Of a DNA stretch of 64,000 nt, positions 14,422 through 63,879 are shown in pieces; position 1 is the first letter of the stretch; each line of letters starts with the position of its first letter. Location: the NCBI GenBank assembly GCA_000310025.1, contig FN649743.1, forward strand, positions 237,757 to 301,756, given 5' to 3'. The position numbers and the translations under genes were made by a program. This DNA comes from Ectocarpus siliculosus. Lineage: Eukaryota > Sar > Phaeophyceae > Ectocarpales > Ectocarpaceae. Below the pieces are notes generated by a model. That model saw only the letters and a program-made list of their open reading frames with translations, was not told the origin of the DNA and did not search any database.

Positions 14422-14640
14422 CTTCGCGGGACTCTCGAGAAGCTTGCTCATGGCGCCGTCGGTGTACAGCCTGATGCGCATTTCTATGCACAACACCCCC
14501 TCCTTTGTCTCGCCAGCGGGGACAACCTTAAGCGTCCCCGGTCCCTTGTCGCTTCCTTGTGAGAGCCCCCCCATCATCGCTCCCGGGGTCGGGGACTCGC
14601 TGGTATCTTGCACCCTTACGGCGTACGCGTTGTACGATCG
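14422..14640 (-). pseudogene. FAD-binding exon of the decayed copy
   Basis: A 73-codon open exon with good acceptor and donor. RSYNAY resembles the FAD-binding R-x-Y-(T/S/N) motif and LYTDGAMSKLL resembles the conserved 'Y-x-x-G-x-x-S-x-x-L' block of the ferredoxin-NADP-reductase fold. A Gly/Ser/Pro-rich insert of about 45 residues lies between them. This exon tells what the large gene encodes beyond the right edge of the window. Confidence 0.7.
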
Positions 14641-16795: not shown

Positions 16796-16912
16796 GACCG
16801 ACAGACCGACAGAGAGACAGACAGACAGAGAGACAGACAGACAGAGAGACAGACAGAGAGACAGACAGACAGACAGACAGGCGGACAGACAAACAGACAG
16901 ACAGACGGACGG
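16796..16912. repeat. GACA tetranucleotide microsatellite
   Basis: Nearly pure (GACA)n with GAGA interruptions inside an intron of the decayed copy. The matching intron of the intact copy has the shorter and more broken reverse complement at about 62935-63005, so the array expanded or shrank after duplication. Confidence 0.85.
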
Positions 16913-17722: not shown

Positions 17723-17911
17723 CTCGCTGTGAACGTGCGGAGAGAAGGACATGGCGTGCCCCACAGACATGTCTTAGCCGAGGATCTCGGCGGTCACGTC
17801 CGTGCCCAGGGCGTTGAGGATAAGGCGCCGGCCCCCCGGGTGCCGGGCCGCGAACTCGGACACGTCCAGGATAGCGCTGTCCACGAACAACCAGCTCTGA
17901 CTGTTCAGCAC
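17723..17911 (-). pseudogene. Cytochrome b5 exon of the decayed copy, with nonsense codon
   Basis: Same 189-base length as the intact exon at 61940-62128. The haem motif HPGGRR is kept. The codon GAA of the intact copy (in LLGEEM) reads TAA here at 17776-17774, which would cut the protein before the second haem histidine. Flanking splice sites are kept. Confidence 0.85.
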
Positions 17912-18858
17912 CTGGCGAGCCAAGGCGAAGGGAGGAAAGGCGATCGAACCGATTGTTCGCACCGAATGTTTCGACGGACTTAAGAAGGCAGGCCCCTAAC
18001 CCCTCTCCGCCCCTTCAGAGTCCAGAAACGTTCCGTTGCTTGCGGAACACGTATCTACCCAAACACCGCTCCCCACCTTTTCGTTAAACTCTGCGAGACT
18101 GTACATGGGTAAGTCCTCGGTTCTGGGCACAAGCCTCTGGTATTGCGGTACTCCGTTCTCATCGGCATCACCCTCGCCGTCGTGCCGCTCATTGATGATC
18201 TCCACACACCCTGCCGATGATGAATGCCATCGTTACCAACATGAGAGGCGGATACGACAAAGTACATTTTTTCTCATTCGTGATATTTTTAGGTTTCACC
18301 ATTTCTTACTCCTGGGCAATTGGAACGCCACCTGAGTATAGCCAGGTATTGGGGGCCCTCGTGCTGCCTACGGTGGTAGCAACGTTTCCCCCTCATGCAT
18401 TCCTCCCTTCCTTGCCCCATCCGCCCTCCTTTGCTGGTTTCTAGTCTCTGCATCCTTCTCTCCCCTCTCTCGGTTCTCTCTCCCGCACCAGCTGAGAATA
18501 TCATAGTTCGATGGTCACCCACGTCGCGTGATCGTTCACAAAATAGTGAAAACGCTTTCACATGCATACACTATTTGGCACACTTGCCTAGAGGGTCACG
18601 AATATACGCCCTTCACACTATCGTACTCTACCGTCGACTTCAGGTCTCAGCGCTTTCGAAAAATCCAACTATGGCCTCACCCCGAAGCACGGGCCAACTA
18701 CTGCAAGAGAGTTTCATCAATAACCAACCTAAAATATTGGCTGATCCCTTCTTGAAGAAGCGGCGGCACTTCTTCCTTGTCTCGAGGTACAGAAAAATCA
18801 GCGCGATCAGCCCTAACCACGCCGGGACCTTTTCGTACACGAACCCGAAGCTGCCCAG

Positions 18859-40800: not shown

Positions 40801-43800
40801 CCGGAGGGTACATACAGCACCCTGAACATGTGATCAACCCGGTGCCGCATCCGCGGGGGAGAGCAGAGAAAGCGCACACCGGAGCCAATGCTAATGTACT
40901 GCCTCGGTGCTTGATGTTGTTGTGATTGCGGTGCGTGTGGTTCCCAGTATTGGGAGTGAAGGGTGATTCGTCTGCTGTGTGCAAAATTTCACTCAAAGGC
41001 AAGGATTTTTGGGACCACAGCTCCGATCACAGCTCTCTATTTGTTACACAGAATAGTAGAATTTATCACGATTTTTATGCATTTTGTGCGATAGTGGATG
41101 ATGGTCTCGATTCTCTGATGAGCGGGCCGTTTTTTTGTCGATCTGGCGCTTCTGTGAGGCGGTTTTCCGTCAGCGTCTTCGCATCTAGCGCCGCTAGCAT
41201 ATGCGCTTGCCGTATGCTCTGTCCAAGGATGAGGTGTAGAAGATGTGCCAACAGGTATTGCTTGCACAGGTACATCCTCTGTGTGGACGGTTGCTGTCGG
41301 AGACAGGCATGCACACCTGCTCAGAAACTACTGCTGTTGTACAGTCTATTTCGCTCCGCATAGCTGCTACTGCTGTACAGCAGTAGTACTCCGGGTGGGT
41401 GGGTGGGTGGGTGGTGTCTCAACCAGAGGTTCCTGTTTTCTTTCTGTTTTCCTGTCGAAGCAGGGTGCCAAATTGAAAAGTGAGAGCTGATCTCGTCCTC
41501 TCATAATATTGGCTCTTTATTGCGTGACACATCTGGAAACGATTTCATCTTTTTCCATTTTGGTTCTTGACAAAACACCAGTATTTTCGAGTCAATTCTT
41601 CTCCTCAGATAGTATGGGATCAAACACTACTGTACTCCTGTTCGTCACCCTTACATATACCGTGTCCCCATCCCTGTGAGCCCCACACATGGACCCACTG
41701 CTGCACAATCCTTGCCGCCGTGATTATGGGTGTACACGCTGCTTGGAAGATCTTTGACCGAGGAAAGCCCAATTGTGGGAAAAAAAAAAAAAATAGCCCA
41801 GTCACGTAAGGGTTAAGAGAATCTGGGTGTGTGTAGCTATTTTGACCTCTCTTAAACCGGCAATTCTCTTAAAGTGAGCTCTCTTTAACCGTAGCCCCCA
41901 CTGTATTAGATAGCTGGCTGAGTGGTCTAATGGTTGATTGGTCTAATGGTTTAGCCCTTTGTACTACTGTAATACAAAGAGATATGTCGACGGGCTCTTG
42001 GCCTCCCAGCAGCGACAGCAGTAACGGCACGCGGTCAGTCAGCTACCTGACTACATGTAGATTTAGAATTCACCATCTAGTATAGGACTCCATTCTTCTG
42101 TTGTGGGTCGATATCTCGCAGTTCGGGGCGCAAGCCACGCACCGCGCGGAAATGTGCCACTGAGACCGAGATCTACTGCTGTAGACTAAAGCCGTGTAGT
42201 ATGCTTACAAAGCTTATTGGTATTGTTTGGTCCGGCAGCAGCAATACCGTAATAGTCGGAAAGTTGGCACCGGGTGCGATCGTTTAAAAAAAAAAAAATG
42301 CTCTGGGTTTTTTTCGCACCCCGGTGCCATCTCTCCGACCCCGGTGCGGAAATGCAATTGAATCATTTCGTTTAGAATTTTCAAGGCACCCCGGTGCGAT
42401 CTCCCCGACCGGTGCGATCCCCGATGAAATACACACAGGCACAGGTGTTGTATGCACGCACCCCGCTGCCATCACCAGCGTAGGTACCCACGCACGCACA
42501 CGGTCTTCTGCACACATACGCATATCTGCGCCGGAAACAAGGCAGCGAAATACACATACGTACCAGAGACGTACCCCGAAAAAAGCTGCGAAATAGCGCA
42601 AACAAAAAAAAATAGACAATGCCAGTCAGTGCGAGCGCACACACAGCCATTGATTGTGCCATGTCAGAGGGTGCAGGTACTGCTTCCTCACAGACCAGTG
42701 GCAGTACTGTTGGTGCTGGTGCTGGTGCTGCTGATGCTGCTGCAGCAGCTCCTTCAGCTTCGCAGCAGTACAATAGTTTCGGGTTGTGTAAGGTTGGGTA
42801 GGGTGCGGCATGTACGTTGTGTGTTTGGTTGAGGGTACGGTTGGCAACTTCCATACCAATTAAAAAATAAAAACAACTGGCATCCCGCGTGAACCGCGAC
42901 CATCCAATCGTACGTAAGGGAGTGGCGCTCCGCTGACACCGTCCCCACGTGTAAACGGTACACACATGTACCTCATTCCGGCAGCTGAAAAGGGGCTCAA
43001 TCTTGGATTTGGGACTCGGAGAAATCGCACCGGGTGTGATCTCACCGACCCCGGTGCGTAAATCGAATTAACCCTGACGTGACTACTGGCCGATTCAGCT
43101 CCGTTTTCAGCTCCGATCACTTTGCGGGCCGAAAGATAGCCGTTGTGCCTCGGCTAAGAGCAAAAAACATACATAGAGACCAGCAGGGAGACACAGGCCG
43201 CCCATCCCAAAAGCACGCTTATCAGCAATGCGCACAGGACTCACATAGTACAACACTATTCACCCATGCCTAATCTCTCTGACGTGGGGCAGATATCCTT
43301 TCCAGATCCAATCTACTGCCTACCGGTACTGCTGTAAGATCCAAACGCAAAATACCACCGGAGGGTACATACAGCACCCTGAACATGTGATCAACCTGGC
43401 GCCGCATCCGCGGGGGAGAGCAGAGAAAGCGCACACCGGAGCCAATGCTAACGTACTGCCTCGGTGCTTGATGTTGTTGTGATTGCGATGCGTGTGGTTC
43501 CCAGTATTGGGAGTGAAGGGTAGTTCGTCTGCTGTGTGCAAAATTTCAAAATTTCGCTCAAAAGGCAAAGGTTTTCGGGACTACAGCTCCGATCACAGCT
43601 CTCTATTTGTAGTACCACACACACAGAATAGTAGAATATACATATATCACGATTTTTATGCATTTTGTGCGATAGTGGATGATGGTCTCGATTTTCTGAT
43701 GAGTGGGCCGTTTTTTCGTCGATCTGGCGCTTCTGTGAGGCGGTTTTCCGTCAGCGTCTTCGCATCTACTACTGTAGCGCCGCTAGCATATGCGCTTGCC

Positions 43801-44479
43801 GTATACTCTGTCCAAGGATGAGGTGGAGAAGATGTGCCAACAGGTATTGCTTGCACAGGTACATCCTCTGAGCGGACGGTTGCTGTTGGAGACGGTATGC
43901 ACGCCTTCTCAGGAACTACTGCTGCTGCTGTACAGTCTATTTCTCTCCGCATAGCTGCTACTGCTGTACAGCAGTAGTACTACTGACTCCTGTTCGTCAC
44001 CCTTACACATACCGCGTCCCCACATCCCTGTGAGCCCCACACATGGACCCACTGCTGCACCATCCTTGCCGCCGTGATTTTGGGTGTAACACGCATGCTT
44101 GGAAGATCTTGACCTTAGAGAGGCAGTTGTGGGGAAAAAAAATAAAATAACCCAGTCACGTAAGGGTTAAATGTTTTTTTTTTTTTCTTAATATGACACA
44201 ACGAATCCATCTCTATCATAGAGTTTGAGGCAGATTAGCAATGAATTTATTATAGAGCGTCAGAAATGTTTTTGTATCGGGTTTTTTATCGCACCCCGGT
44301 GCCATATCTCCGACCGGTGCCATCTCTCCGGCCGGTGCCAACTCTCCGACTATTCCGCCACTGCTGTACGCCCTGCGGTTGTCGTACACAGCAGCGCCAT
44401 TCACCTTCAAAGCTGCCGGAACGCCTAGGCTGTCCTCAAGCCCCTTAATGCAAGCGTCCAGCTTTGATCTTGCTGACAT
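34857..44479 (-). CDS. tRNA-binding OB-fold protein (Arc1p / EMAP II / AIMP1-like), 280 residues
   Basis: Exons (minus): 44479-44405 (probable first), 38406-38193, 37845-37737, 37387-37264, 36342-36271, 35621-35481, 34964-34857 (TGA). The total is 843 bases, all in phase. The C-terminal half is the tRNA-binding domain of EMAP II and methionyl/tyrosyl-tRNA synthetase appendages: VDLRVGQITRVW, LYCEEIDVGEGAPRNIASGL, GRKVIVMCNLKPRNLKGF, SQGMVVCA, ELVVPPEGSAVGERL, then ELTTDVEGTVRW. The N-terminal part has two similar helices (KLDACIKGLEDSLGVP and QLVDSTIATLEASLGLP) and a basic linker. The family binds the outside of tRNA L-shapes and assists aminoacyl-tRNA synthetases in the cytosol. AATAAA overlaps the stop region at about 34852. 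The seven exons are sure except the first, which is separated by a 6 kb transposon-filled intron. Confidence 0.85.
38985..39460 (+). repeat. 0.45 kb direct repeat, copy A
   Basis: Matches 40045-40470: GTACAGCACTGTATT, a poly-G tract, GCGGTTAGACCATTGACCAC, CGTCCTCGAGAGGA, and ACATGAAC-CGGTCTTCGCACTCG in the same order. It is diverged by substitutions and small indels, so it is not simply a doubled assembly. Confidence 0.7.
39942..40041. other. Assembly gap of 100 N
   Basis: Exactly 100 N, probably a placeholder length. It falls between the two direct repeats inside the transposon, where read placement would be difficult. Confidence 0.98.
40045..40470 (+). repeat. 0.45 kb direct repeat, copy B
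   Basis: Second copy of the segment at 38985-39460. Shorter in its CT-rich middle part. It begins right after the gap, so its true 5' end is unknown. Confidence 0.7.
40511..41816. mobile_element. piggyBac-like non-autonomous element, copy 1 (1.3 kb)
   Basis: TTAA at both ends (40511-40514 and 41813-41816) encloses terminal inverted repeats CCCTTACGTGACT and AGTCACGTAAGGG. A TTAA target site and CCC-starting inverted repeats are the signature of the piggyBac superfamily. No transposase frame is present. It contains the internal hairpin CTACTGCTGTACAGCAGTAG near 41365 and a poly-A run next to the right end. It sits inside the pogo-like element and so is younger than it. Confidence 0.78.
41915..41925 (+). 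other. tRNA A-box-like motif
   Basis: TGGCTGAGTGG followed by TCTAATGGTT matches the 5' part of Leu/Ser-type tRNAs and the RNA polymerase III A-box. No matching B-box or tRNA fold was found downstream, so it is at most a fragment. Confidence 0.3.
42251..44354. mobile_element. Unclassified inverted-repeat DNA element interrupted by piggyBac-like copy 2
   Basis: The left end AATAGTCGGAAAGTTGGCACC and right end, complement of AATAGTCGGAGAGTTGGCACC, form inverted repeats of about 23 bases. Behind each end lie several copies of CACCCCGGTGCGATCTC-like sub-terminal motifs (42265-42425, 43015-43065, 44290-44345). Without the nested copy the element is about 1 kb. No transposase was seen, and no target duplication is certain. 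Confidence 0.6.
43068..44170. mobile_element. piggyBac-like non-autonomous element, copy 2 (1.1 kb)
   Basis: TTAA at 43068-43071 and 44167-44170. Nearly the same sequence as copy 1 but about 200 bases shorter: the part after the GCAGTAGTAC hairpin is missing, probably by internal deletion. The left inverted repeat has one change (CCCTGACGTGACT). Inserted into the inverted-repeat element 42251-44354. Confidence 0.78.
44405..44479 (-). CDS. Probable first exon of the tRNA-binding protein
   Basis: ATG at 44479 opens 25 codons ending at a donor AAG|GTGAAT, phase 0. The next sure exon of the tRNA-binding gene (38406) also starts in phase 0 after a CAG acceptor. The encoded KLDACIKGLEDSLGVP resembles the helix QLVDSTIATLEASLGLP in that exon. 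No other ATG was found for the gene. It could instead be a fragment of a paralogue. Confidence 0.45.
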
Positions 44480-46013: not shown

Positions 46014-46046
46014 AACGGCGTGTCTAAATCCCCGGGGGGGGATAAG

Positions 46047-46630
46047 TGTCTAAATACCCCCCCGGCTGTATCTCCGCCCACAAGGCACCAATCGAAGCAG
46101 GACATGCACGGCTGCGTTGCTGTGTTGTGGGGCTATCGCGAGATCCATCGTACAAGCCGAAACGGTTCAGGGTTGGTGCAGCCATGGCTCATGGGCAAAA
46201 TATATCTGTTGCTCCAACCTGCCCTCCGCGGGGGGATTAGTGTCTAAATACCCCCCCAGTTGTATCTCCGCCCACAAGGCACCAATCTAGGCAGGACATG
46301 CACGACTGTGTTGCTGTGATGTTGGGCTATCGCGAGATCCATCGTACAGCCGAAACGGTGCAGGGTTGGTGCAGCCATGGCTCATGGTTAAAACAAATCT
46401 GTTGCCCCAACCTGCCCCCCGGGGGGGGATTTTAGTGTCTAAACAACCCCCCGGCTCTATCTCCGCCCACAAGGCACCAATCGAGGCAGGACATGCACGA
46501 CTGTGTTGCTCTGTTGTGGTCCTATCGCGAGACCCACCGTACAGCCGAAACGGTGCAGGTTTCGTGCAGCCGTGGCTGATGGGCAAAATATATCTGTTAC
46601 CGCTGCTCCACTGGTGGGGAACATTGCCTT
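46047..46630 (+). repeat. Forward array of three 194-base units
   Basis: Units start at 46047, 46241 and 46436, each with TGTCTAAAYA. They differ by scattered substitutions and by G-run length. Confidence 0.85.
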
Positions 46631-47504
46631 GAATACCCCACCAGCTGCATGTTGCCCTACAAGGCTCCAATCGACTGACAAACACCGGTAGAAGTGCGTG
46701 GAACATGCACGCACAGCACACGGCAGCGGGCAGCAGTTGAGGCGAACAGCACATCAAGTATTCCTTTCCACAGCATTACACATATCCAGTGGGAGCCGAA
46801 CACTGCTGCCTTCTCACTGGTGGGGCACAATACCCTTACTTACTCTCCAGCAAAAAAAAATATGTGCTCATACAAGACTTCAGTCGACACAGGACATGCT
46901 CAACTGTGTTGCTTCGCTGTAGGGCTACCGTATGACCCATCGTTAAGCCCGAAGGTTTCCGTTCAGGTAGTCCACAGCCGGTGGGGCAAACTACGGATGT
47001 GCCCCTGCGGAGGGGGAGGGGGGGAATCTGTCTAATACCCCACCCATGGGACCTCGCACGTCTGTACAAGGCCCCGATGGCCACACAAGAACCGTAGTAG
47101 AAGTGTAAAAGATGATGCACGCACAACACACAGCACACAGCAGCATTGCACCACTGCTGTGATCGCTATGTGTATACGTTGTACAGTGCACATCAGGGGT
47201 TGTTGATCCATTCATTCGTTTGGGCTCGCTCGCCAAAAAAACGAAAAACAACGCAAACAATCGCAAACAACAGCAAACGACAACGAAACGGAAAGTAAAC
47301 TTTTTGTAGGTGATGAACGTATTCGCCACCACGAACGTGTAGCCTCCCGTTCGTCCCTGCGACGTGCAAGTCAAACTTAGGCACACGCCGTTTTTCATAC
47401 CGGCCCTTTCAAAAAAATCTGTCGGAACACAGACGCTTGAACATATCCCCACGCAACAGCGGGCCTGTTGGGCAGAGATACAGCCAGGGGTACAGTATTC
47501 AGAA

Positions 47505-48300
47505 GACTAATCCCCCCCCTGGGGCGGTTGGGGCAACAGATATATTTTGCCCATGAGCCATGGCTGCACCAACCGTGAACCGTTTCGGCTGTACGACGGA
47601 TCTCGCGATAGCCCCAAAATACAACGACACCGTCGTGCATGTCCTGCCTCGATTGGTGTCTTGTGGGCAAAGATACAGCCGGGAGGGTATTTAGATACTA
47701 ATCCCCCCCCGGGGGGCAGGTTGGGGCAACAGATATATTGTACCCACGAGCCATGGCTGCACCAACCCTGAACCGTTTCGGCTGTACGATGGATCTCGCG
47801 AAAGCCCCACAACACAGCAACACAGTCGTGCATGTCCTGCCTCGATTGGTGCCTTGTGGGCAGAGATACAGCCGTGGGGTGTTTAGACACTAATCCCCCC
47901 CCGGGGGGCCAGGTTGGGGCAACAGACATATTTTACCCATTGAGCCATGGCTGCACCAACCCTGAACCGTTTCGGCTGTACGATGGGTCTTGCGATAGCC
48001 CCACCACACAGCAACACAGTCGTGCATGTCCTGGCTCGATTGGTGCCTTGTGGGCGGAGATACAGACGGGGGGGTGTTTAGACACCAATCCCCCCCCGGG
48101 GGGCAGGTTGGGGCAACAGATGTATTTTGCCCATCAACCATGGCTGCACCAACCCTGCACCGTTTCGGCAGTACGATGGATCGCGTGGTAGTCCTACATC
48201 ACAGCAACGCAGCCGTGCATGTCCTGGCTCGATTGGTGCCTTGTGGGCAGAGATACAGCCGAGGGGGTGTTCAGACACTAATCCCCCCCCGGGGGGGATT
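47505..48300 (-). repeat. Inverted array of four 190-base units
   Basis: Complements of the forward units, with boundaries at about 47505, 47695, 47885, 48080 and 48275, each marked by an ACTAATCCCCCCCC junction. Confidence 0.85.
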
Positions 48301-48913: not shown

Positions 48914-51900
48914 ATGGCCGCTCGAAGACGCGGCGGCGGTGGCGCCGCGGGCTCGTTTTTTTTGGCAGGACTGTTGGTGTGGACGACGGTGTCGGCAGAT
49001 GACCTGCCCACGGATGAGTTCACCCCCAGAAGCTACGACGGAGTCGGGAACAACGAGGCGAATCCGACCTGGGGGGCGGTTGGGTCAATCGAGGTTTGTT
49101 GCATCAGGGTACTCGACACCGGCATCGTGCCATCGAATGAACGACGACAGCAATTACCATACCAGCGTGCCATGCTTAACTATTCCCCATATGCCTCTTC
49201 TGTTGGCTGTCAGCCTTCCTTTGTGGCTGCGTTGCAGAGTGTGGAAAGTTTGGCATCCTCAACGTAGTATCTGTGAACTCGTGTCCCTTTTTTCGTAACA
49301 TAGTGTGAAAAGAGGGAATCGTCCTCGACAGACGTTGGGGAGTTTCTACCTTCCTGTATGAAGGTGGTCTCCACATTACCCCCCCCTTTTTTCGAGACTT
49401 TTTCTTGTTTTCCAGGCAAGAGAAGTCTTCTTGGGGTAACCGGAACCCGACCGGCTGGCGGCGGGGCGATTCACATTCCTCACAATCCAGGACTGTGGGT
49501 ATATCTCGAATGGGTAGTCTTTCTGTGTGTGTTTATATTATTCCTTAATCCTCTGTACGTGTTTTACGCATTCGCTACGTCCGCCACGCTTCAGAAGTTC
49601 CGAGTTCGATAGCCAGTGCGTCCTCCCTTGGCCCACCCACCATTTTTCTTTTTCCGTTTTCCGGAAGAAAATTTGGTGACCAGCGGGTTTTGAACCCGTG
49701 TCTTTTCTCACGTCGACGCCATTGTGAAAAGAGGGAATCATCCTCGACAGACGTTGGGGAGTTTCTACCTTTATGAAGGTGGTCTCCACAATAGTCGGAG
49801 TTGATTGCGTCCTTCTTAGCTCTTGATTTTCATTCCGTCGGCAGTATTGTCGAGTCCGTTATTCTCATATTTGTGGGATCATACCGTGGGATCATTTCCG
49901 GCTGTCGGTGAAACCACCCCTCCCTCCCGCCCTGGAGCTTTGGTTTGACATGAGATGAGCAAAGTTTTACGTTAGACGATATTCATATGCCATAAGCATC
50001 TCGGCCCCACTGTGAAAATATTTGTGGTGATTCTGAAGCGACCATCATTACGTACAAAAACGCTTGTGTTGAGCGTCAATTTCTCGGACCTGCTCCTTCG
50101 TTTCAACTTACTCCCTCGTTTCCCTTGTCTCTCTATCCCTCTCCATAGTACCGTACCTCCTGGAGGCTGGCTCTGGTGGCTGTTATTGTCCCAACCATCC
50201 CACCGTGCCGGCCCTAAAATGATAACTTTTGTGCTGCTGTTGTTGGCGCCGGCAGTTGCGCTCGGTGGCCCAAGCCGATTACGCCGACGAGCTATTCACT
50301 CCTCCGGGGGATCTGACGAGACCGACCGCTAGGTGACTTGCTCGTCGAGCCCCGATTCCACGAGCTTCTGCTTGGGCTAAGAACGGGGACATCCACTCAA
50401 ACTTCCTCTATACAGCAGTCACACATGCTGTTCTTGAAATGTCAGAGGTCGCCAATTCTCAAGATATGCCAGGGAACCTTGGAACGATCAAAAATAGTTT
50501 GCTCATCTTGTTTCTCCAACGAGTTGTCTGACTCTGTGGCGACAATCCCAAAACGTTTAGTTGAGGCCTTTTTAGGTCTTGCTGATCATCGCGCCCACCC
50601 ACGATGTTATTTCTCGTTTTCGCTGAACTTGCGCATTCTCTAGGGAGGTGATGACCGACGTATTTCTAGCGTCGCCACCAGCTGTGTCCACGGAGAGCGC
50701 CCTCTTCGTCGCGTGGGGGCAGCTGCTGACCTACGATCTGTCTCTGACCGTCGACAACTCCTCCGAACCCTTCGATATCGCCTGCAACGACGGTGAGAGG
50801 GATAGGAGGAGTATTTCCTGTCATCGTCTAGGGGGCGGACGGAGGGCGTAAGTCATGATCGAGTATGTATCCCGTAGTCGACCGTTGATCTTGATCCGTA
50901 TAATGCGAGGCGCCGGGCTCCCGTCGACCAGTACCTGGCACGCAGAGCCGCGACATGCTTCAGCAAGTCGTGCGAAGCTTCGACCTGTATCCCACCATAA
51001 AAAGCATGTGACGCAAGACCCCGTTCCTTGCACGTGCTCTCCTGCGCGAGAACGGGAGCTTGGTATCACTTGGTTTCCATTTGTTTTCCAACATGACCTC
51101 TTCCAGACTCGGCCCTGGGAATGTCCTGCTCCTGTCTCGCGGGCGCCGGACCACACGTCCATTACAGTTCCCTCATGGGGGGATTGCTGACGGCTGCGTC
51201 TGAAAAGAGTACCTTAACTTGGTCGAAAGTCTTGGTCGGAAACGGCGGCAACGGCTGGTACCATCCTGTTGTGCAACCCGTGCGCCTATACGAACTTGCC
51301 CGCGAAAACGACACAACTGCGCATGCACACCTCCTCCATCCTTCACACTTGCACTATCATTGTACTCTTACGTATACAATTCTTCGAAGAAGGATATACC
51401 ATTATAGTTGTTTTCCCCTTATGCACCGCATTTTCAGGCAACGGGGCGGAGGGAATAGACATCTGGTGCCCTCTAGGGGCTAGCTCGGATCCCATCTCCT
51501 TCTTCAGGTCGGATGCGGGTCTGTCAGACGACGATGGCGCCAACAGTGTGGAGACCAGGAGCCCCGTGAACTACGCGACGGCTTTCATGGACCTGGACTT
51601 CGTGTACGGCCGGAGCGAGGAAGACGCGGCGACCCTGAGGTCTTCGGACGGGAACGGTTTCATGGCCGTCACAGAGAAGGGCTTGCCGTACCTAAACGAC
51701 GACGGGACTTGGCTGGTATGTCTCGTTCGCGTGCACTCACCCTCCTTCAAAAGTGCCTCTTCTCTTGGTAGAGACTGAATGCAAGTATAATTCGGTGAAT
51801 ATCACGTTGAAGTCAGATCGGCATTCATCATTTTGTGGTCCACAGTACGACCCATATTGCGTACGATTTCGTGGTTACTATGCTCCCGAGGTTGTAGAAG

Positions 51901-54900
51901 GTTGGGTTGAGATGGGATGTGACCTGCTTAAGGGGGTGTCTTCGGGTGAACCGAGTGCTCTTGCTGAGTGCCAACGGAAGTATGCTTGAACTGAGCATAA
52001 GGCTAGCGTCAATACACCATTTTCGATTATATGTGCTCCCGAAACAAATCGTTGTGTGTGCTCCGGTGTTCTGCCGTGTACCACACGCGTTTGTGTTCAC
52101 CTCCAGGGGAATCATTCTCAGGTCCGAGGCTGTGCAAGAATTGTTTGCATGGTTGTCGAAATGCTGGAGGAACTAGATACGTGTCTCATGCGTGGTAGGC
52201 GCAAGTGGAACACATATGATGGTAGTCTCGTGTGTACATGCATATTAGTCACGGGTATCTTTATGAGCCCAAGACCTATACAGGGCTGGCCGAAGAAAGC
52301 AAGTGTGGCTGAGGAGGGTTAGAAGGACAGACTCTCGCTTGTGTATGAACGCCTTTTGCCTCGCCGTTCCCTTGACTTCTGCGATATTTTCTTCTTTTAA
52401 CGAAGCGCTACTGTAGGACATTCAGCATCAATGTTTTGAGCACCCTTCGTTCAACCCACGGCCACTCATCCCTGTGCCTCTCTCAACCTCTCCTTCGGAC
52501 CTCTCCCTCTTTCTCTCTTTCTCCCCCGTTCGGTCTCCCTCGTTCACCCCTTGCCTCGGCATTTGCCCCGCGCGTCCTGCTGGTAACGCCGATGTTGTTG
52601 TGGTTCTCGTGCTCAAAACACGGAAAACTCATCTCACCGTTACAAACACCAGATCGCCGACCAGCGAACGGCCCGCTTTCCGGTAACCTTTGCCCTGCAC
52701 GTCGTGCTGCTCCGGGAACACAACCGCTGCTGCGTCGAGATCGCACCGGGCGAGGGTGCGGAGACTGATGAGGTCCGGCGGCGAAGTTTGCACTGTCCAA
52801 AGGATTGAAACGAAACCATCATTTTGGGTTGGGTCTTTCCTCACGGCGGACTGTGCACCGAACGACAAAGACAAGCCCAAGTAGTAGTAGACATACCCAG
52901 GCAACAACACGAATTTGGCAGCGTGCGAAACTACTGGCCTGGCGATTTTCACAACGTACAGTTTGCATGAGCGAAAACTCTGAAGGCTGACACTCTTAGT
53001 TGATGGGCTCGAGACGACTCTTACCGGGCTAACGCTGAACGCGTTGGGCTCCGACCTATGTTTACGACAGCTTCGTGATATCGCTGGGTAGATCATACTC
53101 GCGTGGTGAGATTTCACGACAAGCCCAGCATGAAAAAACGGAAAACACTGTGTCATTCGGTGTACCCAGTATCATACGGTGAAGAGTGCTACGCCCGAGC
53201 GGAGTGCACCCTGTCATACGATCAAAAACACGTGGTGTGCGTGCAGTTTATGTCAATTGGTGCGGCGCCTTGGTTGTTCTTGTCTCAACGCACCAGCTGT
53301 TGTTGCTAAGATGTTTTTGGCGTGGACAATACCACACAATGAATGGCTTGGTCGAGCGAAGGCCGATATCTGTCGCTCGCTTTATCAGCCGGTTTGCTAT
53401 TATTGTTGACATACGTGCAACCACGAAAACACAGGACATCTACCAGGTGTGCCGGGGCTGGACTATTGCGGTTTTCCAGCACATCACGGAGAACGACTTT
53501 CTGATCCGTCTCCTGGGGGGCAGTGTCTCGGACTTCGTTGAGACCTCGTCTTCAACGTCGTCAGCATCTTCGTCGTTGTCGTCGTCATCATCAGCAACAG
53601 CGTCAGGACTATCGAGCGACGGCGGTGGTGATACTGGCTCCAGCGGCAGGAGAATAAGGAGGAAGTTAACGGAGGAGAAAGAACAAGATGCACTAGGTGG
53701 GATACTGGCGAGGGGGATATATGAGGGGTGTCAGCAGGTTGATAACGTCCCTCCTTCGTGGTTGTATCGCTGCGCTGCTGGGTGAGGGTTCGTGACTGAG
53801 TGCCTTGCACGTTACCTCACCGTCACGATCACGCGCTCAGGAGACGTGATCGTGTCCGATTGTTCCTGGTACAGCTTTGACGAGACCACGGGATCGAAAT
53901 GTCCTACACGGATCAACCACGACCGTGCGGCTTGCTCTCGAAATACCCCCGCCAGAGAGAGAGAACAGCCAGAAAATAGCCTTTAGGTGCAGGGACCAAG
54001 TTGCCGACGGCAGACATGCGTCGTGAATCACTGCTTGGTTGCGAACGACACGGGGCCTACTTTTCGGATGGTGGCAGAGTAGAAGTCACTTGACCAGCAG
54101 CAACACCAACACCAAAACCACTAAAGGAGGCAAGTACTTACGCACCGGCCTGCAACCAAAACACCACCAACGAAAGTCTTGAAAACATCCATTTCGAATA
54201 TTGCGTCAGTAAAACCAACACCCGTCCTTTGCACTCTCAACTCGTTCCCCAAAACGACAACAACACCGAACGGCTTCGTCGCTATTCCATCATTCGGAAA
54301 CGAACGTTGGCGAAGATTACCCCCCTGAACGGCGCAGGAGGGGCCTGTGGAGTTTGTCGGACTACGACGAGGAAGAAAACCCAGGCGCTGACACCTTCAC
54401 GCTAACGGCGGGGGCGGTAACCTTCGAGTCTGCTCTCCCGCCGACCGTGCGCGTTGTGGCAGAGGGCTACGAGTCCACTCGGTACGACAACACCGAGCTC
54501 GCGGCGGCCGTGGGCGCAGACAGCCTCGTTTCCTTCTTCGACAGCGTCGAGGTGCGTCTCTGATGGCAGCATCTGGCGCTCCATGCACAAAGATGGCGAT
54601 GACTTTCGTGTTGAGGCTTGCCCGTGACAAGGCAGGCAGTCCGCCGGGTCCTTTTTGTAGGGCGTTCAAAGTAGTCTTTCTGAACCAAAGTTCACAAAAA
54701 CTACAGGACAACAGCACATCGCCTACGCAGGGGGTAAATGGGTCGGTGAGATGCTCCCTAGGCGCTTTTATGAACTTTGACAGGAAATCCGTCACGGGTC
54801 ACGATACATTTTCACAGCGGACAAGACCGTCCGACCTTCGAGCCTCACCAGCTTGTGGTGTTGTTGAAACAACACCCCGTGTTTGGTACCCGAGCTTCAT

Positions 54901-57900
54901 CGCTCGAACGCTTCTACCAACTCGCTGTTCCAGGTTGCGGACGTGTTACGAGGCGCGGTGCTGTCACCGGTGTTGGCGGCCAATTCTTACTTCACCACGG
55001 CTGTCTCGAACGGGTCTCCGCTTTTCAAGCTCCCCGTTGACGCTGTGCAGCGGGGCAGAGACCACGCGCTCCCAACCTACAACGATGCCCGGCAGGTGAA
55101 TAGAGCACCTGCAGATCGCACATCGGGACGATAGAAAAGTGCGCGAGGGGATGAGGTGCTGAGGCCGTCTACCATCGCTGCAGAGCTGTAGGGGACGCAA
55201 ACGGGAGGAGAAATCAGCCATCTGGGCAATCAAAATGAATGTCTTCTGTAGACATAGCTTCGTACACTGGGTGTGTTTGATCTTTTCGGATGCGGTATGC
55301 AGAGATTTGGTGAAGAGACCCGTCTGTTTTAAGAGCGTTGATCGGTAAATTTGAACTAGAGTTGGCTGGCCACTTGCCGTCATGAAGTGTTCATCAAATA
55401 CACCTATCAACAATTGTCAGTCTACCTCACCGGGGCCAGCCCCAGTTGGAGAATTTAGCCCCGTTCTACCACCAAGCCAGGCGTTTTCACGGTGCAGCGG
55501 GAGGGCATCTCCGGCCACCAGTGTCAAAAAGTGGGCCAAGTACGTTTTATCGGCAAGACCTGACTAGGCGGTGGCTCCAAACTGGAGACAGCTCTTGTGG
55601 CGTGGAACACCTTGAGGTCCCGTCCCGTTACATCCGTACCTTTGACAAGTTCCACGGCATCCCCCAAACACACAGGCGTTCGGCCTTGATGTGGCGACGA
55701 CTTTTTCGGACGTTACTACATCGTCCTCGTCATCATCAACAACGTCGACGTCATCCGCTTCCGACTCTGACGAACTGGTAGCGACCATCCTCTCGGCGGC
55801 GTACGGGGGCGACATCTCCACCCTGGACGCAGTTACTGGGGCCTTGGCCGAGCCGATGCTGACCAGCTCGGGGGGATTTTTCGGGGAACTTTTGCACGCC
55901 GCGTGGATGGACCAAATGTACAGGTACACTCAGACCTCTGTCAGAACCCTCACTTTTCGAACTATTTAGCGGCCCATGTTCCAGCTGTCCGTTCGTGTTT
56001 CCCGCCATCTCCTCGGTTTACTGTGCCCCCTTAACTCCAGGATCCCATTTCGGAAGCCACCGCACGTGTCGAAGTGCAGGCCGCTGTGTTTGTCGTTATG
56101 CTACGGAAGTATAAGGGTTTTGGCTGCGTCCCCTGCAACCCCCCAGTTGGATGTACTGGAACACGTGATCCCGACGTGTTCTTCTATTTGTCGACTAGAT
56201 GGACGACGGGTGTTTGCTAGAATCCCGATCAACCCAACGTCTCTGTATGATCGAGAACCGCCACCATCACACCATCCAGAAAGCTGCAAATCACCAGGCC
56301 AAGAAACGATGCTTCACTCAGAATCTTCGCGTGTACACACGTAACGCGCTGCCCGACGACACCTTGCACTCTCGCCATCCGTGCTGTTGTCGTTGGTAAA
56401 TCGCAGAACATTTCGCGGTGACCGGTTCCACCACCTCCACTCGAGGAGCATCGAAGACGTCTCTTTGACCACCATCTCGGACTTGCTCAACCGCACGACC
56501 GGCGCCGCCGACCTCCCGCTTTCAGCCTTCGCCGCAGCCGGAGTGGAGGTGTGCGGCGCGGACTGCACGGCGGTTGGCGAGGAGGACGTCGAGCTGTCGG
56601 ACAGCTACAAGATGGCGTGGGAGGTAAATAGATCCCCGGCAGCGTGTTGCATGTGTTGTGGACGTCTTGCCGTGTGCTTTGCACGACTCGTGGAATGTTT
56701 TTTTCGTCAAGCAAGTGGGGGAGTGAAACAGGTGTCTGCATACCTGTTGCGTTTGTGTTTTCGCCAGGTTGTTTGATGGCCTGTCATCCGTACGAATGCC
56801 TAGGCTTTTACTCGGCGTGTGTCTCGTGCGCCAGAAAGGTCCCTCGCGTTCCCGCAACACTTTGATTTTGCTCCAATGTTTCGTTCTGTTTCCTGGTATT
56901 CTCGGTATACAACGCGCCGCAGTCGTGATGGTGAAGAGGCGGATTACCGCCCCCCCGACGAAGCGCGTTTTTTCAACTTCTTTTGGACTGACACAGCTCG
57001 GGTGGTGTTGGGCCACTGATCTCCGTGGTGAATGGCCGTCCACGACTGCTCATTTTCTTCATCGCCGTGCTGTTTGTTTTCGCATTCTCCGTTGCGTGAC
57101 ACCCGCAGGTGCAAGAAGACGAGGAACTCATATCGTTCTCGCTCAGTGCCAGGGACATCGGTGACCGTGGGATGTTAGGCGTCGGTTTCGGGGGGCTGAC
57201 CATGTCTGACGCGCAGGTAAGCCATGAGCCAGCATGAAGAGCGAGCATTTTTTGGCTCAATCTGTGTTTGGTTTGTAGGAGCGCAGGAGGGGGGGGGGGG
57301 GCTGTAAATGGGGTGACTCAAGGTCGGCATCGTTAGCCTCCACCAGCGCAAACGAGAACAAAGGCTTGAGACTACCGGAAAAAACTGCGAAGATGAGACC
57401 GGGGCTAACTCGACACAAGTCACACAAGTCCAGAGCAATGGGTTAGGGTTAGGGTAAGGGTAAGGGTTAGACTTTGTAGACTTCAGTACGATTAAACTTG
57501 ACAGCGAAAAGCTCAGGTGGCATTCAAAGAGGGACCCACCAGGAGGCCGGCAAGGAAGGCGCCACGTCACGGCCAAACGTGTCAGGGGAAATGCACAATG
57601 TACTTGCCCCCTCACACTCTGATACACACCGCACTACCCTCTTTCTCCCTCCCTCTCTCTGTCACAACCGCCCTCATTGTTTCCTCGTTTACATGCCCAC
57701 CATGATCTCGGTGAAACATAAAGGATTTCGTGATCTGCGAACTTACCTCGACGGACGAGGCGGAGTGCATCGACCGGCAACCGACGGGAGGGCGCTCCCT
57801 CCCGCCCCGCGACGATGAGGACGCTGTCCTCGAGGTCCAAAGTGTGGAAGTGGACGGAGAATGGACGACAGTGACCTTCTTGAAACCTACCGCCGCGCTA

Positions 57901-60900
57901 GACGACCAAGACTACGACCTCGCTCAGGTAGGTCAATCAGTGGAAACAAACAAATCGAAGAAGGAAGGTCCCGACCCGCGCCACTAGAAGCGGAGAGGGA
58001 TGCGAATTTTGTCACAGGAGCGGAAATATTCACACAAGTTGGGCACCGATCGCAACCTCCCACGGGTTGTGTGGGGAGGTCTGGACGCCGCACGTTTTGT
58101 CTATTTGGCCAGCCCGGCGCATTGGCGGGAATAACGTCACCATTCGAGATGCGGAATTTCTTGCCCACTTGGGCGTGCAACCTCCCCACCCCAGGTTGTA
58201 GTCGGTGCACAACGTACAGGAGGGCACAGAAGCTTGTTGGAGACGAAGGAGCAGCTCTACCCTCGTACTGCCTCCGCAGTTTTTGTCGTTCTTGCTGTTG
58301 CTTATTACGCGTGTGGACGTGCCACATTGTATGAAGCATCCTGAAGATGAGTAATCGCTTGGTCTCGCCTCGGGGTGGCAGGATATCAAGGACGAGGAAG
58401 AAACCGAAGTCATCTACTCCTTCGGAGAGAGCCTTGGGCAGCATCCAACCTCCAGCCGAGGGGCCAGTACGATCAACTTTGCTACCGGGGACGTTGAAAT
58501 CGAGTGTGACGAGAACAATTTCGTGTCTCTTCACGGAGCCCTGATGCTCATCGCCTGGATGATCCTAGCCCCGTGGGGCATCTACTACGTCAGGCAAGTG
58601 CTTCTACCTCGCATAAACCATCTTGCTGCTGCTGCTGTCGTTGCTGTTGTCGTCGGTGTCATTTTCGAGAATCGAGATGGCCAAGGTTCGCTCCGACCGG
58701 ACTTACGATGCTTCGAAAATGACTCGTCAGTTCGTCTGGTCGCCACTTTCGTTGCTTGGGTGTCATGAAATTACCATTTTCCACCTGTTCGTATACGCTA
58801 CCCTAGTCCGAATGCCCTAGCTTCGCTGCAGCCATCTCATTGCGTCCTCTTCGGTAGCCAGTGCCTTAGACTCGACCGGGCGGGGTCTCCCAAGAGGAAT
58901 TTGCGGCGGACGCGCGTGAGTCCAATCCTTTGACGGTCCTTCTTCCTGCCAGCACCCCTTGCACGTAGTGTTTTTTTTTTTTTTTTACCTTTTCTCACTT
59001 AACCCACTTCAGATGGTACGCGTTTGACTCAAAGACGGCATGGCATTGCCATGCTCGCCGCTATCCGTCCTACATAGGTACCGCAAGGGTGAGGAGATCG
59101 ACTTCATCTGGCGCTACGAGTGGTGGGAAATGCACGAGGAGATCATGATCGTTGCCTCGGAGGCAGTTTTGCCCCTCGGCATCACGTAAGTATGCGCACC
59201 TGCACCTTCCCACTGGAACGAGCACGTGGTCTTGCTATTTTGCAGAAGCGAGTGACGGCAGCATCACCGCGTTGAGAAATGCGTAGTCATCCAATTTCTC
59301 CGACGCTCGGCCCACGGCAAATCTCGAACGGTTCTGCGAAGCGAGCCGAAGTCAACTGAGCCGTGGCGTCTTGGACGCTGACGCACTACGCTTGCATCCC
59401 ACCATGAGCTCCACGAAATTGATTGAATAGTCTAGCGCAATCATCGCCCCTTCGTATTCGGTGCGATATTCGGTTCCTGCCCGAACGGGAATCCACCCCC
59501 CCTTCTGCAAACACCAATCCTTCCTCCTTGCATGGGGGAGGGCAGCACGCAGCCTTTTCTAGCGAAGATCCGAATTTGATCAATAACAGTAAGAAGCCTT
59601 GACCGTGACCAACTCAACGGCGAGACATGTACGACGGTGTTCCCATCTTCCCTCTGTGTTCTGATGCACCGGTGCCCCTCATATTGCAGAGCGATTTTTG
59701 CTTCGGGGTCGCAGCGCGGCACTGAACACGCGCACTGGGGTTACTACATGATCATCGCCGTCATGGCCCAAGTGCTATCCGGCTGGCTTCGAGTGAAAGG
59801 GCTGGGAGGCAAGAACGCCAACTTTTCCGTATTTCACCGGGTGAGAGCTAGTGTTTCCGAGGCGTGGGGTGACGCTAAACCTACCATCAAATCTCCGTGT
59901 GCTTGCCCGCCGACAGGCAATCCCTTTCTTTGTACTGTTATCGCTGACCACGAGTTGGTTGAACAGGGGGGAAAGCAATCCCTGTGCCACTAGATGAATA
60001 ACACAGACAAGGTTACTCCGGGTTGTCAGCGTGTCATTCTCCCCCCCCTTTTCGGCCAAGTATCCCCTACGTTTCCCCTTGCATCCGGAACAGATCCGAT
60101 GTGACGGGTTGTCCTCACGACCTGTAGAAACAACAGTGGGACAAGCCCTTCCATACCCACTGAAATACCCTTGGAATATACGGCACCTCATACATTCGAG
60201 ACCCACGAACCCTCCGATCGTCATGACCAATTCGACAACCACAGTTCAACAAGTTCTTCCACATCTACGCCGGGCGCTTCGCCTACTTGGCCGGTGTCGT
60301 TCAGTGCTACCGGGGGCTCGAGCTCGTGGCTAGCGACGACAAGCTTATATTTTCTGCTGGGGACGGCCTCGACCTACAGGTGATGCTTAGGACGGATCAA
60401 AACACGGGGTTCCCCCCCAATCCCTCCTTGCACTCGTCACGCCAATTCATGTTTGTATAGAGCTGCTATATGCTCTGATATTTGAACTACGGGAGCCATA
60501 AGGGATGAGCTACGTGCGCATCGCGCTCGTCTGTCTCGGCTGTTACTTACCGCATGACACGATCTACCGTAGTTTCTACCATGAAAAAGAAATAGACTCA
60601 TCAGTGGCAGACGCTGATTTTTTCCTCTATCGTCAAGTCTTGCGCCTTGTATTTCTCACCCTCTCGGCATGGAGGATCATGCGATGCTCAATACCTGTGC
60701 CCTCCCCTTCCCACCTCCGTCCCCCCTGACGAACGCCAGATGAGCGAACCCTCGACTTGCCGTGTTCCACCCTATCACTCATGACCTACCCTATAGTAGC
60801 AACGTGGCAAGGATCACAGTAAATCATTCCAGTGAGCACCATTGGGCACGTTCGGCTCCATGCGTAACGTTCACTTCACCCTCATTACACAGCCAGGAGT

Positions 60901-63879
60901 GTTCGAAAAACCGCACGATTCGTCCTTGCAAGCCTGTTGCACCCTATCTCCTGACTATCCGAACTCGCTACCACAGCTGGGCAGCTTCGGGTTCGTGTAC
61001 GAAAAGGTCTTCCCGGCGTGGTTAGGGCTGATCGCGCTGATCTTTCTGTACCTCGAGACAAGGAAGCAGTACCGCCGCTACTTCAAGAAGGGATCTGCCA
61101 AGATTTTAGGTTGGTTGTTGCAGAAACTCTCTTGCAGTGGTTAGCCCGTGCTTAGGGGTGGGGCCCTAGTTGGATACTTCGAAATCTTTGAGACCTGAAG
61201 TCGGAGGTAAGGCACGGTAGTAGGATAGTTTGAAGTGCGCATCATTCTCATCCTCCATTTTTGTGTGCGAATTATGTATGTATATTTGTATGCGTATTCA
61301 TTATTGTAAACACGATCGCACTAAGTGGGTGACCATCGATCTATGTCAATCTCTGCTGGTGTGGGAGAGAGGGAGGAGGGAGTGGGGGCGAGGAGAAGGA
61401 TACAGAGATGATAGAAAAGGAAAGGGGGGCGGGTGGGGGAGGCAAAGGAGGACTAAAATGAGGGGAAACCATGTAGGCAGCACGAGGGCCCCCAACACCT
61501 GGCTGTACTCGGGGGTGGCACGCCAATTGCACAGGAGTACGAAACTTTGAAATCTTAAAATATCACGACTGGGAACCATGCACTTCGTCGCACCCGCCAC
61601 CTATTTGGTAACGATATCATTCATCATCGGCAGGGTGTGTGGAGATCATCAATGAACGGCACGACGGCAAGGGTGATGCCGATGAGAACGGAGTACCGCA
61701 ATACCAGAGGCTTGTGCCCAGAACCGAGGACTTACCCATATACAGTCTCGCGGAGTTCAACGAAAAGGTGGGGAGCGGTGTTTGGGTAGATACTTCTTCG
61801 ATCTTACGCAAGCAACGGCATTGCTCTGGACTCTGAAGGGGCGGAGAGGGGTTAGGGGCCTGCCTTCTTAAGTCCGTCGAAACATTCGGTGCGAACAATC
61901 GGTTCGATCGCCCTTGCTTCCTTCGCCTTGGCTCGCCAGGTGCTGAACGGTCAGAGCTGGTTGCTCGTGGACGGCGCTATCCTGGACGTGTCCGAGTTCA
62001 CGGCCCGGCACCCGGGGGGCCGGCGCCTCATCCTCAACGCCCTGGGCACGGACGTGACCGCCGAGCTCCTCGGCGAAGAGATGTCTGTGGGGCACGCCAT
62101 GTCCTTCTCTCCGAACGTTCACAGCGAGGTCAGCTAGAACGAATGAGTAGCGTACTCGACAAACGGGAAATGCATCCTGTGCGAACAATTAGCCGACAGT
62201 TGTCGTAGTTTTGTCGTCGTCAATGTTGGAGATGTTTATCGTCGAGCGCGCCGGCGGGCGCCCCACACCCAAGGGATGTACGGGGAGGGGTTCCAACAGT
62301 CACGACAGGGCACATCGAAACTAAGGAAGAAGCAGCACATTTGGTACAGTATGCCACATTGACCGGCGCTCCCACCCACATGCTACAACAGCGTGGCGTA
62401 ACAGCAAGTCTGCGTTCGGTGTCATACTCTACCTGCCTTCTGGATGGCGATTTCCCTTGTGCAGAGAGCCTGGACTATCCTGAAAGGGCTGGTGATTGGC
62501 TACATCGACGAGGATGATGAACAAGAGGAAGACGACGGCAACGACAATGTCGATGGCGGCAAGCCGCTCTCCGCGGCACGGAAGGCTGCGGAGAAGAAGA
62601 AGTTCACTATCGCCGGACAGTCGGCCGTGTTCATAGGCACGAGGGGGTCCATCCGGTCCGTCCTCACCGGCGATGCCATGGTAATACCGGACAGGTTCCA
62701 AAAGGCCTTCATATGAAACCGTTGCCTATCACCCAATGAAGTAGTTCATGAACTGCCCCAAGGCGTGCCAAGTTATAGCTTTCGAAGCCTAAACTGTAGG
62801 GCAGACTGGCTATTGCTCCACTTCAACCGAAGTCCCCTAGCTAGTCGAGCTGAATGCTCCCATGTGCTACCTGTTCCGCCTTCCTTGCCTGCCTCTCGGA
62901 CTTTGTTCGTGGTTGTTTGTCTGAACATGTATCTGCCCGTCTGGTCTGTCTGTCTGTCGGTCTGTCTGTCGGTCGGTCGGTCTGTTGCTCTGTCGCTCTG
63001 CTCGTCTGCTGGCCCGTTTTGTCTGCCCACTCAGTCCGCTAAGGCAAAACGGCTGAATGGGCTGGCGACCATTTCTACAGGGATGGTGGATGTTGCGGGC
63101 GCTCCCGGAAGGACATCACCCCAGGAGATGGGAGCGGTGTGTACACATGCCATCTACGTCCATGCCTTGCATTGCCCCTTGGCCAGCGCTCGAGGGGACG
63201 GACAGGGCGGGTCGTCCGTTGGCAAAGACTTGTGTCAGGACAGCAGCCGTATCGATAGATTTCTCAGTGTGAGGCTTTTTTTTCCGCCCCGAACAACGTT
63301 GTTAGCGGCTATTCTGTCACCGGAATCGCCCTCCCCGCGGACTGAACCTCATGAAAGAACCATTACCTCGGCACATACTCCGTTTATTTTCGGACACAGA
63401 GTGCAGGGCGTGACATACGAGATGGAACCGTTGCAAGAGATTAAAGGACGATCGGCTAAGAATCTGGTGTGGTAAGCTTCCACCGAACCCAAACGGCGAG
63501 GATTGCGGGGAAGGTGGGGGAATCGAGGTGCCGGTTCATGTCACGGCCAGAAGCGATGCCGAATGTAGTCTCCGGATGAGCACGCAAACACGTTGCGAAG
63601 GCTCCTGCTACCCGGTCCTACTACAAGTGCGCTCTTATACAACGTAACAAACCTCTTTCTCCTCCGTCTTGATATTGTTCCATCGATCAGCCTCTTCGTC
63701 GTGTCCTTCAGAAGAGGAGCACCTCTGACAGCGGGCGGTCCCTGGAGCGTTTCCACGTGTGCCCACTGCTTTTCCGGGAGAGGATGGGGGCCGTCAGCTC
63801 TTTCGGGCGAGGCTACCTGCCCACCTCCCGCCCAGTGTACCGGTACATATTCCTGTGCCCCGGCCAGGCTCAGATTCTG
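48914..63879 (+). CDS. Peroxidase-like/DOMON/cytochrome b561/cytochrome b5/flavoprotein fusion (3' end off window)
   Basis: Exons: 48914-49093, 50256-50332, 50644-50792, 51438-51715, 52653-52772, 53435-53781, 54338-54551, 54934-55095, 55676-55923, 56407-56623, 57109-57216, 57724-57927, 58382-58593, 59078-59185, 59690-59840, 60245-60379, 60977-61109, 61634-61767, 61940-62128, 62465-62680, 63081-63136, 63400-63471, 63732-63879. All phases agree, giving 1,286 residues. Order: signal peptide (1-29), animal haem peroxidase-like (about 33-660), DOMON (660-800), b561 core with His 819, 858, 888 and 931, cytochrome b5 (about 1049-1130), and the start of a flavoprotein (from about 1213). Topology would put peroxidase-like and DOMON parts outside or in the lumen and b5 plus flavoprotein in the cytosol, so electrons could pass from NAD(P)H outward. 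Exon 6's 3' end and exon 21 are the least certain. Function is inferred; no such fusion is known to me. Confidence 0.85.
49305..49375 (+). repeat. 70-base direct repeat, copy A, in intron 1
   Basis: GTGAAAAGAGGGAATCRTCC, CTCGACAGACGTTGGGGAGT, TTCTACC and GAAGGTGGTCTCCACA are shared with 49724-49790. Copy A has a 4-base insertion in the middle. Confidence 0.8.
49664..49790 (-). repeat. tRNA-like SINE candidate containing direct-repeat copy B
   Basis: On the minus strand, repeat copy B (49790-49724) is followed by TGGCGTCGACGTG, then ACGGGTTCAAAACCCGC, a plausible T-arm with a seven-base loop and B-box, and TGGTCACCA. No complete cloverleaf can be folded, so this is not a tRNA gene. The body at copy A lacks the T-arm. 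Confidence 0.4.
57109..58593 (+). other. DOMON domain (exons 11-13)
   Basis: Begins in the end of exon 10 (SDSYKMAWE) and runs through LISFSLSARDIGDRGMLGVG, FGGLTMSDAQDFVICEL, DRQPTGGRSLPPRDDEDAV, and WTTVTFLKPTAALDDQDYDL to the GQHP-type turn before the membrane part. It is the pattern of DOMON domains fused to b561 (SDAD-x-V, D-R, P-x-x-D). These domains bind haem or sugar outside the membrane. Confidence 0.8.
57440..57470 (+). repeat. Interstitial telomere-like repeats in intron 11
   Basis: GGGTTAGGGTTAGGG followed by two variant GTAAGGG units and GGGTTAG. About five units of TTAGGG type, the telomere repeat of many eukaryotes including brown algae. Next to a poly-G run at 57288-57302. 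Confidence 0.8.
58382..61109 (+). other. Cytochrome b561 core (exons 13-17)
   Basis: All four haem-ligand histidines of the family are in place: SLHGALMLIAW (819), WWEMHEEIM (858), TEHAHWGYY (888) and FNKFFHIYAGR (931). These lie in hydrophobic helices. A fifth hydrophobic helix (VFPAWLGLIALIFLYLE) ends in basic residues. Family members move electrons across membranes from ascorbate; here the attached b5 and flavoprotein suggest NAD(P)H as the source. Confidence 0.85.
58594..59077 (+). other. GC-AG intron
   Basis: Intron 13. The only donor that keeps the frame is AG|GCAAGT, the usual GC-type donor with otherwise perfect consensus; the acceptor is ACATAG|G. The joined codon is Arg (AG+G) and yields YYVRYRKGEE. 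A long T-run (about 58970-58987) lies in it. Confidence 0.75.
61634..62680 (+). other. Cytochrome b5 domain (exons 18-20)
   Basis: YSLAEFNEK joins VLNGQSWLLVDGAILDV exactly at the exon boundary, then EFTARHPGGRRLI (first haem His 1083) and SVGHAMSFS (second His 1111). Spacing is a few residues longer than in microsomal b5. The following exon (WTILKGLVIGYIDEDDEQEE) gives the closing helix and an acidic linker. The intact GAA codons here are those mutated in the decayed copy. Confidence 0.85.
63081..63879 (+). other. Start of ferredoxin-NADP-reductase-type flavoprotein (exons 21-23)
   Basis: Exons 63081-63136 and 63400-63471 were placed by phase. Exon 63732-63879 is better supported: the decayed copy keeps its frame with an in-frame 9-base deletion. 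It reads FHVCPLLFRERMGAVSS ... RPVYRYIFLCPGQAQIL, fitting the first strands of the FAD domain. The FAD and NAD motifs themselves lie beyond the window. Confidence 0.6.

Follow-up and report, generated by a model that had tools for sequence, protein, structure and literature searches.

The gene described here, found in the brown alga Ectocarpus siliculosus near the end of the 64,000-nucleotide stretch of DNA that we analysed (the window), probably encodes an exporter that carries electrons across the membrane. It would be a protein of the CYBDOM type, with a DOMON domain and a cytochrome b561 core, that has its own cytochrome b5 domain and probably a reductase, and that is capped by an inert peroxidase fold. 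We judge it to be a variant of the CYBDOM kind built on a plan resembling that of the dual oxidases (DUOX).

The predicted gene occupies positions 48914-63879 of the plus strand, on which all its exons lie, and continues beyond the end of the window. Its 24 exons splice in phase into a model of 1320 amino acids with no internal stop. The coordinates and the order of domains given in an earlier note on this DNA were borne out by this model, in which the Pfam domains fall in one chain. The in-phase joining claimed there also stands, with 24 exons modelled here against the 23 counted there. One of them, exon 23 (63407-63466, 60 bp), is doubtful: it is only 82.1% identical to its counterpart in a decayed copy of this region (see below), a level that resembles non-coding DNA, and it can be removed without loss of frame. 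The splice sites are GT-AG in 22 of the 23 introns and GC-AG in intron 14. Exons have a G+C content of 0.604 and introns one of 0.521; within exons it is 0.59, 0.47 and 0.75 at the first, second and third codon positions, respectively. The borders of exon 4 (its end), exon 7 and exon 8 represent a choice among several possible splice sites, and an in-frame ATG upstream, at 48824, offers an alternative start. Exon 1 (48914-49093) contains the start codon, a hydrophobic leader (residues 10-28) and the first peroxidase-like residues. An element of about 45 bases was seen by eye twice in intron 1, at about 49303 and 49724.

A single gene is the better reading of these exons, although it falls short of proof. 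The Pfam match to An_peroxidase ends near residue 643 and the match to DOMON begins near residue 673, both inside exon 11 (56407-56623, residues 608-680), and exon 14 (58382-58593) carries the tail of the DOMON domain followed by the first b561 helix. In addition, neither exon 12 nor exon 19 is preceded by an in-frame ATG after the nearest upstream stop, and exon 19 contains no internal ATG. These features favour the one chain proposed in the earlier note and argue against the alternative that two or three adjacent genes (peroxidase-like, DOMON-b561 and b5-reductase) were wrongly joined across intergenic DNA, as do the intron lengths, which range from 172 to 1162 bases with a mean of 479. Separate genes would be in keeping with the stop met 33 bases past the end of exon 18 when this exon is read through, and with the internal ATG of exon 11 at 56612, close to where the DOMON match begins, which could initiate a DOMON protein, though a leaderless one; we nevertheless consider them improbable. 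We also give very little credence to the idea that the gene is a recent pseudogene or a chimaera of the assembly. A decayed partial copy does exist within the same window, but the 24 exons are free of stops and frameshifts, the domain joins fall inside exons and the G+C content follows a strong pattern by codon position.

Taken as one gene, the model begins, after its leader, with a peroxidase-like domain that spans residues 39 to about 643 and lacks the usual haem ligands. It is encoded by exons 2-11 (50256-56623), that is, 50256-50332, 50644-50792, 51107-51208, 51438-51715, 52653-52772, 53435-53727, 54338-54551, 54934-55095, 55676-55923 and exon 11. The whole model matches An_peroxidase in two stretches with an E-value of 1.1e-71, and the coverage of profile positions 2-286 (whole model) and 310-523 (shorter query) out of 530 places the domain within this fold, that of the peroxidase-cyclooxygenase superfamily. 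The same part gave no match in NCBIfam. Its matches in the PDB are lactoperoxidase (8s6c, 1.8e-25), peroxinectin A (6erc, 9.8e-18), myeloperoxidases (from 3.6e-14) and dual oxidase 1 (1.8e-11), so that in sequence it is closer to 8s6c and 6erc than to DUOX1. Relatives collected with a four-row alignment comprised the best 80 of 530 confirmed bacterial loci and eight loci on viral contigs; the bacterial proteins have the same fold and domain length, with up to 33.8% identity over aligned columns among these best 80 of 530. The eight IMG/VR viral contigs (L081-L088) encode An_peroxidase relatives in which both catalytic histidines are present.

The active site was compared at 87 of these 88 loci (79 bacterial genomes and the 8 viral contigs), L033 being left out as it falls under the length cut-offs (300 aa for the open frame, 400 aa for the piece). 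The catalytic positions are named after those of myeloperoxidase. The motifs given in the accessible text of PMC4420034 agree with this naming. Among the 87 relatives, of which the bacterial ones are drawn from the best 80 of 530, the proximal histidine is invariant (87/87) and is replaced here by Glu430, whose exact column depends on the alignment, while the arginine three residues before it, also found in 87 of 87, is replaced by Val427. With the same sampling from the best 80 of 530, the distal histidine (83 of 87, a count that may be biased because the distal His/Tyr position forms part of one of the two search patterns) has become Tyr116, the distal aspartate (70 of 87, with threonine in 12) Thr115, the ester glutamate (87 of 87) Arg270 and the proximal asparagine (80 of 87) Ala508. 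Both catalytic histidines are thus lost here, where 83 of the 87 relatives (79 of them bacterial, from the best 80 of 530) have the pair. The position of the proximal histidine is absent from both search patterns, and the model contains no histidine between residues 401 and 450. Of the set that characterizes an active animal-type peroxidase (proximal and distal histidines, arginine, and the Glu/Asp ester positions), only the catalytic arginine, found in 87 of 87 relatives (the bacterial ones from the best 80 of 530), is kept, as Arg267. Other conserved positions are changed as well, for example a glycine present in 87 of 87 relatives from the same sample (best 80 of 530 for the bacteria), which is Ala264 here. 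On these residues, the peroxidase fold looks dead, having lost its haem ligands.

A working haem enzyme that relies on other ligands and uses peroxide produced by the electron chain would account for the features that are retained. These include, besides Arg267, the REHNR motif and the residues Asp117 (79 of 87), Thr217 (78 of 87) and Asp221 (87 of 87; bacterial relatives again from the best 80 of 530), the last three of which presumably correspond to calcium-site positions in myeloperoxidase. A serine of the Thr217/Asp221 loop, present in 86 of the 87 (bacteria from the best 80 of 530), is changed to Asp223. Against such an enzyme stands the replacement of the proximal histidine, the arginine three residues before it, the distal histidine, both ester positions and the proximal asparagine, and we hold it to be very unlikely. 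An inert fold remains our reading of the N-terminal part.

The domains that follow could form the conducting part of the protein. DOMON is encoded by exons 12-14 (57109-57216, 57724-57927 and 58382-58593) and contains the candidate haem ligands Met712 and His805, residues of the kind found in CYBDOM proteins, for which binding is predicted. The Pfam score of the whole model, 32.1 bits (E = 1.4e-7), falls just under the cut-off of 32.7, and a shorter query exceeds it with 34.8 bits. The first b561 helix, with His835, lies in exon 14 after His805; the remainder of the b561 core is encoded by exons 15-18 (59078-59185, 59690-59840, 60245-60379 and 60977-61109), which carry His874, His904/His906, His940/His947 and the last helix. 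The four histidines announced in the earlier note are found at 835, 874, 906 and 947. The whole model matches Cytochrom_B561 with an E-value of 0.069 (DUF420, 0.086), and the b561 part, taken by itself, reaches 19.4 bits (E = 0.0014), ahead of DUF420 (0.023), BatA (0.075) and DUF2306 (0.35). Because the Cytochrom_B561 score is under the cut-off of 23, the assignment depends on a weak profile match together with the histidines. The DOMON-b561 part gave no significant match in the PDB. By hydropathy, four of the five expected helices rise above the threshold and the helix of His947 stays below it; residues 454-487 and 641-664, in the peroxidase part, also pass, weakly. The b5 domain, placed after b561 by the earlier note as well, is encoded by exons 19-20 (61634-61767 and 61940-62128); it matches Cyt-b5 in the whole model with 42.8 bits (E = 5.5e-11) against a cut-off of 23.7, and matches a cytochrome b5 in the PDB (6.4e-6). 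Its predicted haem ligands are His1099, within HPGG, and His1127, the latter being our own assignment with His1136 nearby. Exons 21-22 (62465-62680 and 63035-63136) encode a linker without any Pfam match.

The presumed start of a flavin domain, in exon 24 (63712-63879), has no Pfam match either, and the earlier proposal of a reductase start draws its support from another part of the window. Comparison of the window with itself revealed that 60828-64000 matches 19009-15795 of the minus strand, in inverted orientation and with about 84% identity. This decayed partial copy of exons 18-24 (15795-19009, minus strand) is separated from the matching part by about 42 kb and from the start of the gene by about 30 kb. 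A stop interrupts its b5 exon, exon 21 shows a 7-base gap, and no trace of exons 1-17 was found in it (tblastn, E up to 1). Identity reaches 926 of 979 aligned positions (94.6%) in exons 18-24 and 1757 of 2117 (83.0%) in non-coding DNA (Fisher p = 4.9e-21); in exons 21 and 22 it is 92.3% and 98.0%. The mismatches number 20, 9 and 24 at the first, second and third codon positions, and exon divergence is less than half of non-coding divergence (p = 1.5e-4). If introns are neutral, this points to past constraint on the copy. Intron 19 (61768-61939), unlike the other introns, is 93.9% identical between the copies, near the exon level, which shows substitution rates to be uneven.

Past the point equivalent to the end of the window, the copy runs on, at 12319-15794 of the minus strand, into pieces resembling flavin reductases: LCIEMRIRLYTDGAMSKLL, VQLQGPFVIQKL...VIMIAAGTCTNP and RLAPVWRATSEADLFGADEIAAMQ. 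None of the reductase-like pieces gave a significant match when taken singly. Joined into 121 amino acids, they retrieved 14 PDB sequences at non-significant E-values of 0.58-1.9: 12 of ferredoxin-NADP reductase, one named "Putative uncharacterized protein" and one "Ferredoxin". A local reductase profile was built from 14 of 19 bacterial sequences, the five without the motif being dropped. Run against single open reading frames, it found nothing significant; two unrelated frames came first (E = 0.13 and 0.45) and the best of the pieces picked beforehand was sixth (E = 4.8). In ten shuffled sets, one of them a shuffle of the frame of that best piece, the best scores were 3.0-6.0 bits. The joined pieces, picked by eye, scored 15.5 bits against this profile, a value reached by none of 2000 shuffles (best 4.3) and none of 2000 random sets of pieces (best 5.6), although these two zero counts are biased in favour of the match because the pieces had been chosen by eye for reductase motifs. 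When the order of the pieces was permuted, 5 of 200 arrangements scored as high. Only three of the six pieces, exon 24 not being one of them, fall within the alignment. The joined pieces are thus only suggestive of a flavin end, and the support that the decayed copy lends to the claimed reductase start is indirect.

We propose that cytosolic NAD(P)H would reduce a C-terminal flavin domain, beginning in exon 24 and with its remainder outside the window, from which electrons would pass to the b5 haem (His1099/His1127), then to the predicted inner haem of b561 (His874/His947), to the outer one (His835/His906) and to the DOMON haem (Met712/His805). The DOMON haem would deliver them to an acceptor outside the cell, for which ferric iron or another metal complex is the most likely candidate and oxygen a less likely one. 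The N-terminal peroxidase fold would also lie outside, where it would not bind haem in the usual way; it would most likely serve as a structural cap, or as a docking or substrate platform over DOMON, comparable to that of DUOX. Domains of the b5 family usually receive their electrons from a flavoprotein, and the decayed copy runs on into reductase-like pieces, if pieces picked by eye. Both points argue against an ascorbate-driven CYBDOM protein in which b5 is a side branch or a sensor and no flavin domain follows. That arrangement, which we regard as rather unlikely, has in its favour the want of a Pfam match in exon 24 and the example of Arabidopsis HYP1, reported to use cytosolic ascorbate in the part of PMC10784544 available to us.

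A path of this type through the NAD(P)H-driven protein favoured here has precedents in its central portion. The CYBDOM proteins, which include HYP1 and CRR of Arabidopsis, CG8399 of insects, SDR2 of humans and the DOMON-b561 proteins of Chlamydomonas and Ostreococcus, have in the accessible accounts a DOMON Met/His pair and a four-histidine b561, for both of which the present model offers candidates. For Drosophila CG8399, the ligands given in the available text are Met286, His379, His409 and His480 (PMC10691727). The candidate ladder Met712-His805-His835-His906 has the same spacing, 93/30/71, provided that His906 is chosen over the adjoining His904; these positions could be selected to fit, and His940 likewise lies near His947. 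In HYP1, the pairs Met90/His174, His211/His278 and His245/His314 form a ladder of the same kind with another spacing (84, 37 and 67), and the accessible text reports a proposed three-haem conduit and a measured trans-membrane current (PMC10784544). As described in the parts of these sources at hand, CYBDOM proteins lack a peroxidase fold, a b5 domain and a flavin end, and the donor of HYP1 is ascorbate. Should the proposed path be correct, a CYBDOM relay can take an input of its own from b5, and possibly from flavin, in place of ascorbate.

The peroxidase fold brings the protein close to DUOX in another respect. According to the accessible text of PMC7794343, the N-terminal peroxidase homology domain of DUOX1 is devoid of haem and packed on the membrane domain, and the haem-ligand histidine of this domain is lost in DUOX (PMC4420034 and PMC7794343, as far as their available text goes). 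Both proteins would therefore place an extracellular An_peroxidase fold without the haem-ligand histidine atop a trans-membrane electron exporter. The parallel with DUOX drawn in the earlier note is stronger than first claimed, given that the haem ligands are missing from the peroxidase fold, as in DUOX. Its second half, b561 and b5 in place of the gp91phox core, agrees with the Pfam search, in which no NOX or ferric-reductase core and no EF hand was found in the 1320 residues at E-values up to 1. Since a NOX core and EF hands are features of DUOX, membership of that family was rejected. It is conceivable, and we suggest it tentatively as the less probable outcome, that the dual-oxidase plan was invented a second time, independently, with an NAD(P)H-driven DOMON-b561-b5 core instead of NOX and a peroxidase-fold cap that has lost the same histidine, its product at the cell surface being reactive oxygen or reduced metal. 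In 2015 the function of the modified peroxidase domain in DUOX was called obscure (PMC4420034, in the part available). A dead peroxidase fold on an unrelated exporter, if that is what this protein carries, would make this role testable in a second setting.

Parts of this sort have been mixed in evolution, as two other groups of proteins indicate. The DOMON ferric reductases of Albugo, Phytophthora and Naegleria, stramenopiles included, likewise combine an extracellular DOMON with a trans-membrane reductase; their core is a ferric reductase domain and not b561, and no peroxidase fold is mentioned in the accessible portion of PMC3591440. A demosponge NOX with extra b561-like helices likewise has such helices in an NAD(P)H-driven exporter; it contains a NOX core, and the available text mentions no DOMON, b5 or peroxidase fold (PMC9524095). 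Our own searches for relatives covered prokaryote, viral, phage and plasmid collections. Queried singly, neither the b561 part nor a peroxidase part found a relative of the architecture in viral contigs, and tblastn with the peroxidase part found none in plasmids. Among the papers listed in our searches of the open-access literature, none announced this domain order; it may be catalogued in InterPro or in eukaryote databases.

In the rest of the window, Rfam (at the gathering threshold) and tRNA scans were empty. Ten large open frames outside the gene were scanned with Pfam, and one of them, at 31357-31890 (plus strand), contains ankyrin repeats (Ank_2, 4.8e-6). Just upstream of the gene, tandem repeats of about 195 bases occupy 46030-46674 and 47463-48296, the two blocks being oppositely oriented. 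A direct repeat links 40511-41390 to 43068-43981, with 93% identity over 915 aligned bases, and an inverted repeat links 7474-8428 to 20062-20915 in three pieces of 75-79% identity, possibly the trace of a mobile element.
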